A DNA stretch of 64,000 bases from positions 1 through 64,000 of the forward strand of contig NZ_BFAX01000002.1 of assembly GCF_004310395.1 (NCBI RefSeq), in the 5' to 3' direction. A program made the translations under genes and the position numbers. This stretch comes from Methanofervidicoccus abyssi (lineage in GTDB: Archaea > AGJL01 > Methanococci > Methanococcales > Methanococcaceae). The notes beneath the pieces were generated by a model. The model saw only the letters and a program-made list of their open reading frames with translations. It made no database searches and had not been told where the DNA came from. Below, piece after piece: positions 31,727 to 39,734 of this stretch. Numbering within the stretch: position 1 is the first letter of the stretch; each line of letters begins with the position of its first letter.

Positions 31727-32134
31727 TTATGGAATACTATAGTAGTATTTGTTACCGTATTCAGATATTATACACAGTCTTGCCGGTGCAGTGGCATTAA
31801 TACTGATATTCACAGTATTGAGGGGAAAGAGATACTTTACATTGGGATAGACACTGAAGTTTATTGGAGTCCCGTTGTATAATACTGTCCATTTTGAAGG
31901 TTCAAGAACCACAGAACCGTCATTCTTAACAGTTATGTTTATAATATTTGAGGAATTTACCGCCGATATTATTTCCAACCTTTCACGTAACTTTTTATTC
32001 TCCAACTCTATATAATCTGAGTAGGCTTTGGATATCTTTTCTATATTCAGATCCATAGAAGTGTATAGATATATTGCACAAACCAGCAAAGTTGAAAGAA
32101 TTACTACTGTTCCTACAATGGAACTAAACCCCAT
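31727..32134 (-). CDS. flaF: Archaellum stator protein FlaF/ArlF
   Basis: A 135-residue protein with an N-terminal hydrophobic helix right after the start (FSSIVGTVVILSTLLVCAIY) and an immunoglobulin-like extracellular domain. It binds S-layer protein and partners FlaG. I prefer ATG at 32134 because GGGGGTTGA lies 8 nt upstream; a TTG at 32146 would directly abut that site. The gene overlaps the end of flaE by 11 bp. Confidence 0.9.
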   Translation of the reverse strand: MGFSSIVGTVVILSTLLVCAIYLYTSMDLNIEKISKAYSDYIELENKKLRERLEIISAVNSSNIINITVKNDGSVVLEPSKWTVLYNGTPINFSVYPNVKYLFPLNTVNISINATAPARLCIISEYGNKYYYSIP

Positions 32135-32531
32135 AGTACTCTTCAACCCCCTTTTTAATTCTTCTTATTTCCCACTCTATTCTATCCAATATATCACTGG
32201 AAATCTTCTTACCGTTTAATCTCTCTATGAAGAGTAGTGAGACTAAATGATCGGTAATAGTTAATCTTGGAGGTAATTCCTCTTCTTCTTCAATTCCGGG
32301 TCTAATACCCTTTAAGAACTTCAGTAGATCCAACACTGCTCTGTCAGAGAGCCACCCTAAATTGTAGTAAAACTCCAACACATCTGGAATATTTGAATAT
32401 CCAACTTTTTCAGAGAGATATTCTATCCATTTAAAGGCAAATATTATGGATATAGGATCGTCAGGTATCTTCTCCAACTTAGCAGGTCTATGGGTTTCAA
32501 GCAATATAGATGATAGTGATGTGGTATCCAT
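32124..32531 (-). CDS. flaE: Archaellum accessory protein FlaE/ArlE
   Basis: A 135-residue soluble protein containing the FlaD/FlaE domain, here the whole protein, with FAFKWIEYLSEKVGYSNIPD near 30 and ITDHLVSLLFIERLNG near 92. The same domain ends flaD. In Methanococcus FlaC, D and E form the cytosolic ring or interface that receives the chemotaxis signal through CheF. GGAGGGATC precedes the ATG. Confidence 0.93.
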   Translation of the reverse strand: MDTTSLSSILLETHRPAKLEKIPDDPISIIFAFKWIEYLSEKVGYSNIPDVLEFYYNLGWLSDRAVLDLLKFLKGIRPGIEEEEELPPRLTITDHLVSLLFIERLNGKKISSDILDRIEWEIRRIKKGVEEYYGV

Positions 32532-32554: not shown

Positions 32555-33496
32555 TTAAATAAACTGTAATTCTTCAGCCCATTTTCTTATTCTATTGATC
32601 TCTCTGTCTATGTTCTCCAGTTCATCTATAGGTATTGGCCTACCTGCCAATTTTTCTATATACAGGAGTGAAACAATGTGATCTTCTGGTATCATTTTAT
32701 CTACAGGCTTTCTAAGATCTTCATTTAAATATTTCATATTCTTTGATATTTTTATCAGTCTGTTTACTACTTTTTCAGATATCCATCCTAAGTTGTAGTA
32801 GTAGTCAAGTATGTCGATTAGGTTGTTCAGACCAACCCTACCTATCAGGAACTCTAACCATTTAAACACCAACATTGTAGACAGTGTATCTTCAGGTAAT
32901 TCTTCTAATCTGTACTTCTTCTCACTTATCTTCTGTATTTCAGAGGTCATACTAATACCACCTTCTTTTTTCTCAGAGATAGGAGGTATTTCAGTAGAGG
33001 TTGTTTCGGAGGCTGGTTTTTCTAAGGGTTCTGAAGTACTTTCTTCTTCTCCAGTCTCTACAGTTTCTTCTATTTCTTGAGGCGCTATTTCTTCACTTTC
33101 TGTTTCTTGTTTTTCTTCCTTTTTAATTTCTTTTTCTTCTTCTAATTTTGATATTTCCTTTTTTATATCCTCTGAGATTTTTGTTGCAGAAGTAATTGCA
33201 GCAACTTTCATCAGTGCATCTAATTTTTTACTTAATTCGTTAATTCTTTCCATTAATTCTTCAGTTTTTTTATCTTCAGGCCTTTTACCTAAGTATAGAT
33301 CAGTTATCCTGGTAACTATTCTATCTAACTGGCTTTTAGTCAATCTCCTATTTTTTAAATTATTTTTTAAAAGTTCAACTATAAATGAAGGGATTTTAGT
33401 TTTTAAATTTTCTAAATATTCTTCCAGTTCATCATCAGTTAAGTATTCCTCTTCTATAGAGGATGTGGATGAGAGGACTTCTGTCTCGCTAATCAT
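32555..33496 (-). CDS. flaD: Archaellum accessory protein FlaD/ArlD
   Basis: A 313-residue protein with a Glu/Lys-rich coiled-coil middle (about 80-170) and a C-terminal FlaD/E domain (LVFKWLEFLIGRVGLNNLID near 210, PEDHIVSLLYIEKLAG near 275) homologous to FlaE. Its ATG overlaps the stop of flaC by 8 bp, with GGAGGATATCC inside the flaC end. It likely links motor and chemotaxis input. Confidence 0.93.
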   Translation of the reverse strand: MISETEVLSSTSSIEEEYLTDDELEEYLENLKTKIPSFIVELLKNNLKNRRLTKSQLDRIVTRITDLYLGKRPEDKKTEELMERINELSKKLDALMKVAAITSATKISEDIKKEISKLEEEKEIKKEEKQETESEEIAPQEIEETVETGEEESTSEPLEKPASETTSTEIPPISEKKEGGISMTSEIQKISEKKYRLEELPEDTLSTMLVFKWLEFLIGRVGLNNLIDILDYYYNLGWISEKVVNRLIKISKNMKYLNEDLRKPVDKMIPEDHIVSLLYIEKLAGRPIPIDELENIDREINRIRKWAEELQFI

Positions 33497-34042
33497 GGAT
33501 ATCCTCCTCTCTTGATATTATTTTGGAGATCTCTTCTTCAGCAAGTATATCTTCTATAATATCGTTTATGTCTATATCGTACTGTCTTAGATAAATATCT
33601 GCTAAGATTACCACATCTTTCTGTAATTCATCTATTTTTTTCCTGAGAATTTTTGTCTCATACTCTAGTTTTTCCAATTTTTCCATACTAGTAGCAGTAA
33701 TTTTTGAAATTCCAATAAAAGGATTTATTTGATTGGAAACTACTTCGTAAAGTGCCATAATATCCTGAAAATTTTCATTGATCTTATCTATGCTCTCCCG
33801 TAAAGTTTCGTTTTCTTTTCTAAGGTTGGTGATCATCATCTCTATTTTTGGAAATTTGGATTCCAACTCCTCGATTTTAGCAAGAAGTTCTTCATTCGCC
33901 GCGGCCAATTCTTCGCCTCCGGTTTCTACCATTTCCTCTTCAATTACAAATTCTCCCTCTAATTCCCCTTCCTTTTCTCCTTTCTTTTTACCGAATGCTA
34001 TTTTTTTTTTATCTCTTCAATTATCTCCGCTATATTGGGCAT
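33489..34042 (-). CDS. flaC: Archaellum accessory protein FlaC/ArlC, split by a frameshift at an A10 run
   Basis: The 147-codon downstream frame (33932-33489) encodes a coiled-coil FlaC (IEELESKFPKIEMMITNL, then KIDELQKDVVILADIYLRQY) but has no ribosome-binding site before its ATG. Upstream, ATG at 34042 has a strong GGTGGGACT site and begins MPNIAEIIEEIKKK, then hits TAG right after a run of ten A (plus-strand T at 34001-34010). Rereading one A (minus-1 shift) joins it to IAFGKKKGEKEG and the rest of FlaC, giving about 184 residues, a normal FlaC length. Either slippage makes the full protein or the run contains an indel. Confidence 0.82.
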
Positions 34043-34770: not shown

Positions 34771-35409
34771 TTATTGAAGTCGAACTACTTCCATATCACT
34801 TAAATATGTTGCTGGTGTTGTAAAGGATATTATGGCTGGAGCACCAAATTCAGGTTGTACACTTCCTGTTATAGTTGATCTTGGTCCCATATTTAATGCT
34901 GTTGTATTTAATACGATTGCTACAATATCTCCCCTGTCTATTACTGGTGTATCCTGCTTACAGGACCCATCAGCATCTTGAATGACTACTATTCCAAATT
35001 TTGATGAGTTTAGTCCACTCCAATTGACGGTATCAAATAATGATCCACCATTACTTAAATCATAATAAATGTTAGGATCATACTTTGCAACTAATCTTTT
35101 TTCACCATCACTTATCATTACAACCGCTTGGCTCAAATCAATTGGAGCACTTCCTGCATTTGGTGTGATATATATAGCAGTTCTGTTTATGTTGGTCCCA
35201 TTGTGCTCTCCATCAATCTCCAATATGTTAATACCACTTGCAACCTGTTCTGTACTTTGCTTACCTGTGGAGGATGCTTTCTGCTGCAAGAATCCACTTG
35301 TATTTATTAACACACTTGCTGCAACTGCTGCTACTAATACCATAGCTATGAAGATTATCAGGGTTCCAATACCCATTGCTCCTCTTTTACTTTTAATAAA
35401 CCCTTCCAT
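34771..35409 (-). CDS. flaB4: Archaellin FlaB4 (tandem copy)
   Basis: A 212-residue archaellin with signal peptide [10 protein letters not shown] cut before AMGIG, the hydrophobic helix [18 protein letters not shown] and an outer beta domain. Its sequence is identical to FlaB3, and the mature part also to FlaB2. The 65-bp spacer before it is the same as before flaB3 and flaB5. N-glycosylation sequons (NGT, NRT, NTT, NSS-like) are present on the outer domain. Confidence 0.95.
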
Positions 35410-35474
35410 AACAATCCACCTAAAAAATTTTTGTAAGGAGAGATAGAAAGATTGTTAAAAAGTAAGATTGTTAA

Positions 35475-36113
35475 TTATTGAAGTCGAACTACTTCCATAT
35501 CACTTAAATATGTTGCTGGTGTTGTAAAGGATATTATGGCTGGAGCACCAAATTCAGGTTGTACACTTCCTGTTATAGTTGATCTTGGTCCCATATTTAA
35601 TGCTGTTGTATTTAATACGATTGCTACAATATCTCCCCTGTCTATTACTGGTGTATCCTGCTTACAGGACCCATCAGCATCTTGAATGACTACTATTCCA
35701 AATTTTGATGAGTTTAGTCCACTCCAATTGACGGTATCAAATAATGATCCACCATTACTTAAATCATAATAAATGTTAGGATCATACTTTGCAACTAATC
35801 TTTTTTCACCATCACTTATCATTACAACCGCTTGGCTCAAATCAATTGGAGCACTTCCTGCATTTGGTGTGATATATATAGCAGTTCTGTTTATGTTGGT
35901 CCCATTGTGCTCTCCATCAATCTCCAATATGTTAATACCACTTGCAACCTGTTCTGTACTTTGCTTACCTGTGGAGGATGCTTTCTGCTGCAAGAATCCA
36001 CTTGTATTTATTAACACACTTGCTGCAACTGCTGCTACTAATACCATAGCTATGAAGATTATCAGGGTTCCAATACCCATTGCTCCTCTTTTACTTTTAA
36101 TAAACCCTTCCAT
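35475..36113 (-). CDS. flaB3: Archaellin FlaB3 (tandem copy, identical to FlaB4)
   Basis: Protein identical over all 212 residues to FlaB4, with the same signal peptide and the same upstream spacer and ribosome-binding site (AGGTGGATTGTT). Being a full duplicate it probably raises archaellin dosage rather than adding a new filament part. The identity at synonymous sites points to a very recent origin. Confidence 0.95.
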
Positions 36114-36178
36114 AACAATCCACCTAAAAAATTTTTGTAAGGAGAGATAGAAAGATTGTTAAAAAGTAAGATTGTTAA

Positions 36179-36829
36179 TTATTGAAGTCGAACTACTTCC
36201 ATATCACTTAAATATGTTGCTGGTGTTGTAAAGGATATTATGGCTGGAGCACCAAATTCAGGTTGTACACTTCCTGTTATAGTTGATCTTGGTCCCATAT
36301 TTAATGCTGTTGTATTTAATACGATTGCTACAATATCTCCCCTGTCTATTACTGGTGTATCCTGCTTACAGGACCCATCAGCATCTTGAATGACTACTAT
36401 TCCAAATTTTGATGAGTTTAGTCCACTCCAATTGACGGTATCAAATAATGATCCACCATTACTTAAATCATAATAAATGTTAGGATCATACTTTGCAACT
36501 AATCTTTTTTCACCATCACTTATCATTACAACCGCTTGGCTCAAATCAATTGGAGCACTTCCTGCATTTGGTGTGATATATATAGCAGTTCTGTTTATGT
36601 TGGTCCCATTGTGCTCTCCATCAATCTCCAATATGTTAATACCACTTGCAACCTGTTCTGTACTTTGCTTACCTGTGGAGGATGCTTTCTGCTGCAAGAA
36701 TCCACTTGTATTTATTAACACACTTGCTGCAACTGCTGCTACTAATACCATAGCTATGAAGATTATCAGGGTTCCAATACCCATTGCTCCTCTTTTACTT
36801 TTGAGATATTCTAAGAATTTCAATCTCAT
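36179..36829 (-). CDS. flaB2: Archaellin FlaB2 (core identical to FlaB3/B4, 5' end as FlaB1)
   Basis: The mature sequence from AMGIG to the C-terminal DMEVVRLQ equals FlaB3 and FlaB4. The signal peptide MRLKFLEYLKSKRG and its ribosome-binding region (GGTGGTATACC) instead match FlaB1. ATG at 36829 is chosen because GGTGG lies 6 nt upstream; an ATG 15 bp earlier has no site. The switch in identity marks a recombination joint between residues of the signal peptide and mature start. Confidence 0.95.
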   Translation of the reverse strand: MRLKFLEYLKSKRGAMGIGTLIIFIAMVLVAAVAASVLINTSGFLQQKASSTGKQSTEQVASGINILEIDGEHNGTNINRTAIYITPNAGSAPIDLSQAVVMISDGEKRLVAKYDPNIYYDLSNGGSLFDTVNWSGLNSSKFGIVVIQDADGSCKQDTPVIDRGDIVAIVLNTTALNMGPRSTITGSVQPEFGAPAIISFTTPATYLSDMEVVRLQ

Positions 36830-36908
36830 GGTATACCACCCCACCTTTTTTATTTTTTTTATTAAATATTAATTAATTTATTAAAAATTTTAATTTAGTA
36901 CTAAATAT

Positions 36909-37877
36909 TTATTGTAAGTTGATTACTTCGCTGGTATATGCCGCTGGAGTTACTATGTCTATTACTGCAGGAGCACCAAATTCTGGCTGTAATTTACCTG
37001 TTATTTCTTTTCTTTCAGGTATCCCACTGCTGAATGCTGCTTCAGTGTTTATCAATATTGCCACTAAGTCTCCTTTGTTTATTACTGCATTGTTCACCAC
37101 TGACTTATCATTGTCTTGTAATGGAACTACTAAGAACTGTTTATCGTCAGTACCTCCCCAAGTTGCTGAATCGCTGCTAATGTATGCCCAGTCTAAGGAA
37201 GTACTACTAGCAGTTCCAGAAGAAGCTACATTCGTAGTAATATTGACAACCATTTCAGTGCCATTATATGATACGATATTTAATGATGCTGAACTATCTG
37301 TTAATGTATTGTTAGCATTAATATTTACATTTTTACCATCAAATTCTTTCAATAATGCCATTATTTTGTGGTCGCTTGTCGTTATTATAATATATTTGTT
37401 ATTAGTACCATCATCCACAAGTGTAATGCTTGTGTAATCTGAAGAAGTAATATTCACTTCTCCCGTATTCGTTAATTCAAAAAGGTTATCACATCCAGCA
37501 GTAGCAGGTATTGTACCGCCATATTTCAATATTACACTTTTACCATCATAAGTTAAGAATAATTTTGCTTCCTTTAAGTCAATTGGAGCACTTCCAGCAT
37601 TAGGGGAAATGTACATTATCATTCTATCTAAATCATAATAATTACCGTCAAAGGTAAATATATGGCCAGATACTCCACTACAGAATAATCCACTTGCAAC
37701 CTGTTCTGTACTTTGCTTACCTGTGGAGGATGCTTTCTGCTGCAAGAATCCACTTGTATTTATTAACACACTTGCTGCAACTGCTGCTACTAATACCATA
37801 GCTATGAAGATTATCAGGGTTCCAATACCCATTGCTCCTCTTTTACTTTTGAGATATTCTAAGAATTTCAATCTCAT
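36909..37877 (-). CDS. flaB1: Archaellin FlaB1, large form
   Basis: First archaellin of the operon, 322 residues, about 110 more than its neighbours. The first 63 residues (signal peptide to VASG) equal FlaB2. The outer domain is then different, with an inserted middle rich in Thr/Ser/Asn and several N-glycosylation sequons (NITS, NNT, NGT, NITT). The C-terminal strand PEFGAPAVIDIVTPAAYTSE returns to the family. A larger archaellin could be the major filament or a surface-exposed variant; the sequence does not say which. GGTGGTATACC precedes the ATG. Confidence 0.93.
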   Translation of the reverse strand: MRLKFLEYLKSKRGAMGIGTLIIFIAMVLVAAVAASVLINTSGFLQQKASSTGKQSTEQVASGLFCSGVSGHIFTFDGNYYDLDRMIMYISPNAGSAPIDLKEAKLFLTYDGKSVILKYGGTIPATAGCDNLFELTNTGEVNITSSDYTSITLVDDGTNNKYIIITTSDHKIMALLKEFDGKNVNINANNTLTDSSASLNIVSYNGTEMVVNITTNVASSGTASSTSLDWAYISSDSATWGGTDDKQFLVVPLQDNDKSVVNNAVINKGDLVAILINTEAAFSSGIPERKEITGKLQPEFGAPAVIDIVTPAAYTSEVINLQ

Positions 37878-38087
37878 GGTATACCACCTAATTGTAGTTG
37901 TATTGTATTATTTGCAATTACTAATTTTATAACAGTATAATAAATACTTTTTTTGTATTCCATGTTGCATACATTTTTGTATCTTTTTATGTAGGTATTT
38001 TAAAAAACCTACACAAATACCTACCCTTTAAACTTAATATATTAATTTATATGGATATTGACTATAACGACATTAGATGGCGAGATC
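37878..38087. promoter_or_regulatory. Divergent control region between flaB1 and the HEAT-repeat gene
   Basis: A minus-strand TATA-like stretch (GTATTTATTATAC, near 37937-37950) lies about 65 bp before flaB1. Beyond it, GTAGGT (37991-37996) pairs as an inverted repeat with ACCTAC (38007-38012), and a second ACCTAC follows at 38019-38024, 12 bp on. A TACATA hexamer on the minus strand (37989-37994) overlaps the first arm; I recall a similar hexamer as the reported site of EarA, the archaellum activator in Methanococcus. An operator for the archaellum operon is likely. Confidence 0.6.
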
Positions 38088-39734
38088 ATGATGGAAAAGA
38101 CATCTAAGATTCTAAGTAATCTCGATGATAACAACCTCACTCCTTTAGATCCTCAAAACCTAAAAAATCTATTAAAAACATTTAAAAAAGGAAGTATTAA
38201 AACAAAACTATCCCTACTTAACGAGATCTCTTTTATATCAGTAACAAATCCTGAGGCACTTCAAGATATTGTACCATATCTAATAAAGTTGATGGATGAC
38301 AAAGATTGGAGAACAAGAAAAAATACTGTTGAAATCTTGGGGAATATTGGACTTGTAAGTTATGAAACGGTAGAAAGGTATTTAGATAGAATACTAGAAA
38401 AATTAAATGACAAAAATCTAGATGTAGTATATTCAGCAGCCTATGCAATAGTTAAAATATCTATAAATCTAAAATGTAAGAATAAACACGAACTTATAAA
38501 TAAAGTACTGAAAAAGATGAAATCAAAGAACAAAATTCTATATACCGAGATAATTAAAAACATAAGTGAAATCTACCCCGATATTGTACAAAATTACATA
38601 AAAGATATATTAAAACTCCTCGATGAGGATAGTACAATTATAAAAATAAATGTACTTAAAACCTTGGGAAATATTGGAGATGTAAAAATTGATAGAGAAG
38701 TAGCCCAGAAGATCATTAAATATCTGAGGGGTCCTCCTCCAGAACTTAAAAGATACAGTGCATATGCAATATGGAAACTAAGTAACAACAACTTGGAACA
38801 CTTCAATGATGCCATAGAACTTCTTATAGAAATTGTAAATAGAGAAAATGACAGTAAATTAATAATTTACTCACTATTAGCCTTAAATATACTATCTCAT
38901 ATATGTCCCCAAAAATTCAAAAAATTGGATATAAACGCTTTAATCCATAACAAACTAATAAGAAAACCCCTTTTAGAACTTCTCTACAACCTATCAACAT
39001 TAGACTACACCCTTTTAATTCCATACATGGACAGATTATATGATATACTCAACAACGATGAAGATATTCAATCAAATAAGATGATTATAAGAATTATAGG
39101 TAACATGGCCCTATACAATCCTAAATACATTAATAAATATCTAACCATCTTACGGGAGAAACTGAAGGTTTCGAAGTTAAGACACGAGGTGGTATTAGCA
39201 TTAGTCAAAGGAAATTACATCGACAGGAATATACTTAGCACTATCTTCCATGGATTCCGTAATTTAGAGAAAGAGGAAAATGTAAAATTTTTAGAAGAGG
39301 TCATAACTCACTATCCATTAAATCTATTAGATACCTTATACAATGAGATAAAAAAGTTGGAACCCTACCTGAATAAAAACAACAACTTCAACAAACTTTT
39401 AAATATAATAAGAGAACGAATAGATGAGAAAAAGGGAATAAATACACAAGATATAAATATGGTAATAGAAGAGGCCGAAAAAAATGTACTTAAGGTAGTA
39501 GTAGCGTTAGAGTCAGAATGTGTAAAGGTGGAGTTAGAGGATGGTAAAAAGGTATATATCATACCAGAGAATACCTGTATAAAAACTCCACTGTCTAACG
39601 AACTGTTGGAAATTCTTGAGAAATACAGTAAAAATGAAATGGAAATGTACAAGTTAGTCCATGAAATTATGGTAAAGTCTCTTATAGAAGATACACTTTT
39701 GGAGTACAACAGAGAAGAGAAAGATAAAAAATAG
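38088..39734 (+). CDS. HEAT-repeat protein, divergent from the archaellum operon
   Basis: A 548-residue soluble protein built of alpha-helical HEAT-like repeats across about residues 40-420 (for example DIVPYLIKLMDDKDWRTRKN and ILEKLNDKNLDVVYSAAYAI). It ends in a small separate domain (VVVALESECVKVELEDGKKV region, about 455-540). HEAT proteins act as protein-protein scaffolds; the partner is unknown. The position, head to head with flaB1 across a shared control region, suggests a link to motility. ATG at 38088 or 38091 is the start, after GGCGAGATC. It is followed within 10 bp by moaB. Confidence 0.75.
   Translation: MMEKTSKILSNLDDNNLTPLDPQNLKNLLKTFKKGSIKTKLSLLNEISFISVTNPEALQDIVPYLIKLMDDKDWRTRKNTVEILGNIGLVSYETVERYLDRILEKLNDKNLDVVYSAAYAIVKISINLKCKNKHELINKVLKKMKSKNKILYTEIIKNISEIYPDIVQNYIKDILKLLDEDSTIIKINVLKTLGNIGDVKIDREVAQKIIKYLRGPPPELKRYSAYAIWKLSNNNLEHFNDAIELLIEIVNRENDSKLIIYSLLALNILSHICPQKFKKLDINALIHNKLIRKPLLELLYNLSTLDYTLLIPYMDRLYDILNNDEDIQSNKMIIRIIGNMALYNPKYINKYLTILREKLKVSKLRHEVVLALVKGNYIDRNILSTIFHGFRNLEKEENVKFLEEVITHYPLNLLDTLYNEIKKLEPYLNKNNNFNKLLNIIRERIDEKKGINTQDINMVIEEAEKNVLKVVVALESECVKVELEDGKKVYIIPENTCIKTPLSNELLEILEKYSKNEMEMYKLVHEIMVKSLIEDTLLEYNREEKDKK

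Follow-up and report, generated by a model that had tools for sequence, protein, structure and literature searches.

A conserved out-of-frame run of adenines near the start of flaC in Methanofervidicoccus abyssi and its relatives, and a probable case of recoding

In the insect endosymbionts Buchnera and Blochmannia, needed genes carry out-of-frame runs of poly-A and are rescued by slippage. The fs-chlD genes (magnesium/cobalt chelatase; a GeneTack cluster) are known from Methanocaldococcus, Methanococcus and bacteria (PMC3711429, PMC9227772), and chlD cassettes in E. coli gave 10% shifting with seven A (A7), 40% with A9 and 63% with A11 (PMC3711429). Transcriptional slippage at A9 in dnaX of Thermus thermophilus is described in PMC1088944, and a -1 programmed frameshift has been shown experimentally for the alpha-fucosidase of Sulfolobus (PMC8211752, PMC8037382). 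Selenocysteine and pyrrolysine aside, confirmed recoding in archaeal chromosomal genes amounts to very few genes (reviewed in PMC8211752 and PMC5009743). A literature search, whose scope lay outside subscription journals and the GeneTack database, found no report of a frameshift in flaC or another archaellum gene. Recoding at poly-A is known in kind, and the case considered here is apparently unreported in the papers searched.

The window (the whole 64-kb stretch of M. abyssi DNA that was analysed) contains flaC on the minus strand, in the fla operon, between the flagellin genes and flaD/flaE. The start of flaD (32555..33496, minus strand; PF04659) overlaps the flaC stop (ATGATTAG), and flaE (32124..32531, minus strand) has an Arch_fla_DE domain. 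An initial annotation had described flaC as split by a frameshift at a run of ten A, with the rest of the gene in the -1 frame, and this is right base for base. The ORF in frame 0, encoding the N-terminal segment of FlaC (33998..34042, minus strand), opens with ATG 34042-34040, continues CCC AAT ATA GCG GAG ATA ATT GAA GAG ATA AAA AAA AAA TAG, and has 14 codons with the product MPNIAEIIEEIKKK. The A10 run, the putative site of shifting or slippage, occupies 34010-34001 (minus strand) in the 0-frame phase A_AAA_AAA and is followed at once by TAG (34000-33998); it was assigned from the sequence and a comparison of codons across species. The ribosome-binding site, GGTGGG (34051-34046, minus strand), was assigned from the sequence and its conserved place in relatives, GGTG or GGGG being likewise placed in the flaC loci examined. 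It is a good site, as annotated, and the gap to the ATG is 3 nt; the 4 nt first given becomes 3-5 nt depending on how the site is drawn.

The remainder of FlaC is encoded in the -1 frame (33489..34016, minus strand; stop 33491-33489), which from 34001 onward reads ATA GCA TTC GGT... (IAFGKKKG...). The joined protein matches the Pfam family FlaC_arch (PF05377) with E=2.4e-23, above the cut-off and over the full model (1-55). Upstream of the junction the -1 frame is open for just five codons, closed by TGA 34019-34017, and has no start codon ahead of the run. Its earliest is ATG 33932-33930, 22 codons past the run; in relatives this codon is GTG, shifted or absent. A run of 8 or 11 A would give a single open frame, which agrees with what was first proposed.

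On the evidence presented below, flaC is very probably a recoded gene, whose full-length product would be made only after a frame change that depends on the run, by slipping of either the polymerase or the ribosome. It would resemble fs-chlD in a -1 shift at A_AAA_AAR or longer runs of A, conserved across species and in the same archaeal lineage. The two differ in that chlD has its long frame open in this genome, where a shift would add an extra short product, whereas in flaC the shift would be obligatory for any functional protein and would come just 11-20 codons from the start. As with dnaX of T. thermophilus, the organism is a thermophile, the homopolymeric A run is in the sense strand and slippage would occur at the run itself; slippage in dnaX gives a short product about half the time, whereas in flaC it would give the full-length one. 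Like the alpha-fucosidase of Sulfolobus, flaC is an archaeal gene in two frames, whose functional product would need a -1 shift. The fucosidase site is not known to be an extended stretch of pure A close to the start. The endosymbiont cases are scattered in reduced genomes, in contrast to a single gene kept across genera where runs of A9 or longer are otherwise avoided in genes.

Relatives of flaC were sought in 36 genomes of the order (the whole phylum in the collection used), which gave 26 loci in 25 genomes; four further loci, taken from genome contigs, are duplicates of sequences already in the set. An A9-A11 run, placed 11-20 codons from the start, occurs in 17 genomes including that of M. 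abyssi, as 18 distinct sequences from two families. None of the 18 is in frame: 17 need a -1 shift and one a +1 shift. In groups g1 (the genus of M. abyssi) and g3, seven sequences have A10 followed by TAG, and one further g1 sequence has A9. The Methanocaldococcus-like sequences (f2/g5) have A9 in nine cases and A11 in one, six or seven codons further downstream, with C or G as the next base and hence A_AAA_AAC or A_AAA_AAG as the 0-frame site. No run-bearing species has a base other than A within the run. The eight intact copies of flaC (seven Methanococcus-like, of group g2, and L019) are without any A run of seven or more, absence of the run going with an open frame in all eight. The g2 N-terminus, MPNISEIIEEIKQKIKLGKK, is continuous over the junction and aligns with MPNISEIIEEIKKK plus IAFGKK, and in the homologues L012-L018 both parts of FlaC lie in a single open frame. 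On a tree of FlaC, the states of run and no run require two label changes. The 18 sequences are related, so independent origins of the run number at most about two, and its different positions in the two families mean either that it moved or that the trait arose twice.

The comparison of run lengths among relatives (A10 versus A8 or A11) that the initial annotation had called for thus finds A9-A11, every one out of frame. It bears on the suggestion, made there, that motility is phase-variable through the run; replication slippage would alter its length and so toggle motility. A10 is mutable, and the sequence that needs +1, L030 (the same as L002; G027:C219:884-933), has A9 where its nearest relative, L007, has A10. 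That A9 may be a miscount; it comes from a MAG that is 64% complete. The same MAG has a second copy of flaC, with A10. A mixture of states would put about a third of the sequences in frame, as against 0 of 18, and both run length and the -1 offset vary little, whether within a genus or from one genus to another. Phase variation is for these reasons improbable.

Synonymous and non-synonymous differences were counted in seven g1/g3 sequences, in which the stretches flanking the run are short. The pN/pS ratio was 0.13 for frame 0 ahead of the run (codons 2-11), 0.16 for the six frame -1 codons directly past it, and 0.11 for the body of flaC, and the same counts gave no comparable purifying signal in the out-of-register frames upstream of the run. 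Both sides of the run are, judging from these ratios, under purifying selection at the level of protein. At lysine codons of flaC outside the run, AAA and AAG are switched in 23-25% of pairwise comparisons; in the codons of the run there are no such changes, as against 14.4 and 26.5 pairwise differences expected (the pairs are not independent).

In all 18 run-bearing sequences the -1 frame lacks a start codon both upstream of the run and within it. Downstream, ATG, GTG or TTG first appears after 53 codons in L009 and L011 and after 46 in L005 and L008, and these late codons fall within the conserved coiled region of FlaC. Since the first 46-53 codons past the run are free of start codons in several species, internal initiation cannot yield full-length FlaC, and without a usable start in the -1 frame the full-length protein requires a frame change. 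The 14-codon ORF might alternatively be a regulatory leader, with FlaC beginning internally by reinitiation: ATG 33932 is preceded in the window by GAGGAA, and GTG or ATG occurs close by in some relatives. Against this stand the lack of any such codon over the same distance in L005, L009 and L011, the conservation as protein of the segment directly past the run, and the intact homologues, which hold both halves in one protein. I consider reinitiation distinctly unlikely.

The initial annotation took a sequencing indel as its main alternative, the DNA being truly one A longer than called and flaC simply open. Undercalls in homopolymers are common, and in 17 of the 18 sequences a single additional A would suffice to open the frame. 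However, the error would need to have recurred in 17 assemblies, single-contig genomes among them (G028, G033 and several of g5), and, in g5, to have affected another run. Elsewhere in the same genomes, genes are reported with A9, A10 and A13 runs that stay in frame, and the species with intact flaC have no run at all. With the same state in independent assemblies, an undercall is highly implausible and is rejected. Least credible is the view that the broken frame marks flaC as a decayed pseudogene with its frameshift fixed, given the pN/pS of the body, a like break kept in many species and intact neighbours in flaD and flaE.

The flaC A10 is the only run of at least nine A or T in the 64-kb window. 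The genome (1.31 Mb in five contigs) contains 26 such runs, each assigned as genic or intergenic by reading the short stretches around it. Twenty-one are intergenic and 5 genic, where a coding share of about 86% predicts about 22 genic runs (binomial P ~5e-14). Because it is alone in the window and runs of this length are strongly avoided in genes genome-wide, the flaC run is not a matter of chance. Avoidance of long runs in genes is a signature of slippage-prone runs according to Baranov et al. (PMC1088944), and by that logic the counts suggest that A9 and longer runs are prone to slippage in M. abyssi.

Besides the out-of-frame A10 of flaC, the genic runs are an out-of-frame A9 in a PRK04334/UPF0280-like gene, A9 in chlD, and in-frame A9 runs in moeA and a cheD-like gene. 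The run in chlD (cobalt chelatase; G000:C3:240088-240096, L074) lies within a linker and is of the fs-chlD site type of this lineage; a PF01078 search across the order was too unspecific for listing fs-chlD genes. In the PRK04334/UPF0280-like gene (G000:C1, about 169463-170212; L063, L084), a ribosome site is followed by ATG TTC AAA TTT and A9. Its 0 frame ends after 14 codons, and the -1 frame goes on and matches intact homologues (KKKISIKES.. versus ..RIQIKET..). In six species (L084-L086, L088, L090, L091) the A9 is -1 out of frame; two others, L087 (A8) and L089 (A10), retain the frame across the run, so that this gene is either less constrained than flaC or mixed. An order-wide search for the pattern ribosome site-ATG-A9 or longer found about eight other genes, all keeping frame, for which reason free drift of start-proximal A runs in these genomes was rejected. 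Recurrent loss of frame at the run, coupled with a long second frame that is open, was confined to flaC and PRK04334.

The production of full-length FlaC by slippage or -1 shifting, as the initial annotation had proposed, is strongly supported by the comparison, through conservation, selection, the lack of a usable internal start and the existence of intact homologues. Translation would begin at ATG 34042 with its good ribosome-binding site, and products staying in frame would end after 14 codons. A fraction would enter the -1 frame at A10, giving FlaC of 184 residues, the protein through which chemotaxis is coupled to the archaellum motor. RNA polymerase might insert one extra A as it transcribes the run, or the ribosome might slip back one base on A_AAA_AAA. 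The flaC run has the length (at least nine A) and the 0-frame phase (A_AAA_AAN, here A_AAA_AAA) of a slippery site, and it shows the marks of poly-A recoding: a transition conserved in 18 sequences of two families, selection on both frames and homologues in one frame.

No conserved RNA structure was found downstream of the run (z=0.07 in the window; mostly insignificant in g1/g3), and the sequence upstream of it showed nothing Shine-Dalgarno-like that might act as a stimulator. Stimulated -1 programmed ribosomal frameshifting, which is recognized by one or the other, is not supported. One relative, L027 (G003, g5), has an unusually stable predicted structure past the run (z=-4.3), not common to the relatives. 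The missing downstream structure is compatible with polymerase slippage, since slippage does not need one. The lack of stimulators and the avoidance of A9 and longer runs in genes incline me toward the polymerase, and the nearly uniform -1 direction leans toward the ribosome, fitting ribosomal slipping at least as well. On balance, polymerase slippage appears slightly the likelier of the two.

Such a shift would limit the amount of FlaC and, by way of the overlapping start, the translation of flaD. In Methanococcus maripaludis, cells with flaC deleted are non-motile and non-flagellated (as cited in PMC2666748), and in Halobacterium FlaCE and FlaD interact with proteins that bind chemotaxis proteins (PMC2666748). 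It is conceivable, if somewhat short of probable, that an out-of-frame flaC is maintained in the thermophilic Methanococcales as a means of control, in which slipping at a set rate meters FlaC and FlaD, that this arose perhaps twice, and that PRK04334 is governed likewise. If so, archaeal recoding would control motility and at least one further gene (PRK04334) would share the scheme. An obligatory frame change in a gene needed for swimming and conserved in two families would, if true, provide a simple, testable model of poly-A slippage in archaea, in kin of culturable methanogens. Automatic annotation will tend to label flaC a pseudogene or misplace its start in these genomes.

The surroundings of flaC show some further features. 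Three flagellin genes lie in tandem at 34771-36844 of the window, two of them without a difference over 639 nt (100% identity) and the third sharing 98.6% identity with each, which suggests recent duplication or gene conversion. A larger flagellin (36909-37877) has its first ~60 N-terminal residues in common with the tandem flagellins. In Halobacterium, a HEAT_PBS protein connects chemotaxis with Fla proteins (PMC2666748). A gene at 38058-39734, adjoining the archaellum genes on the opposite strand, encodes a 558-residue protein that is HEAT-repeat-like in appearance.
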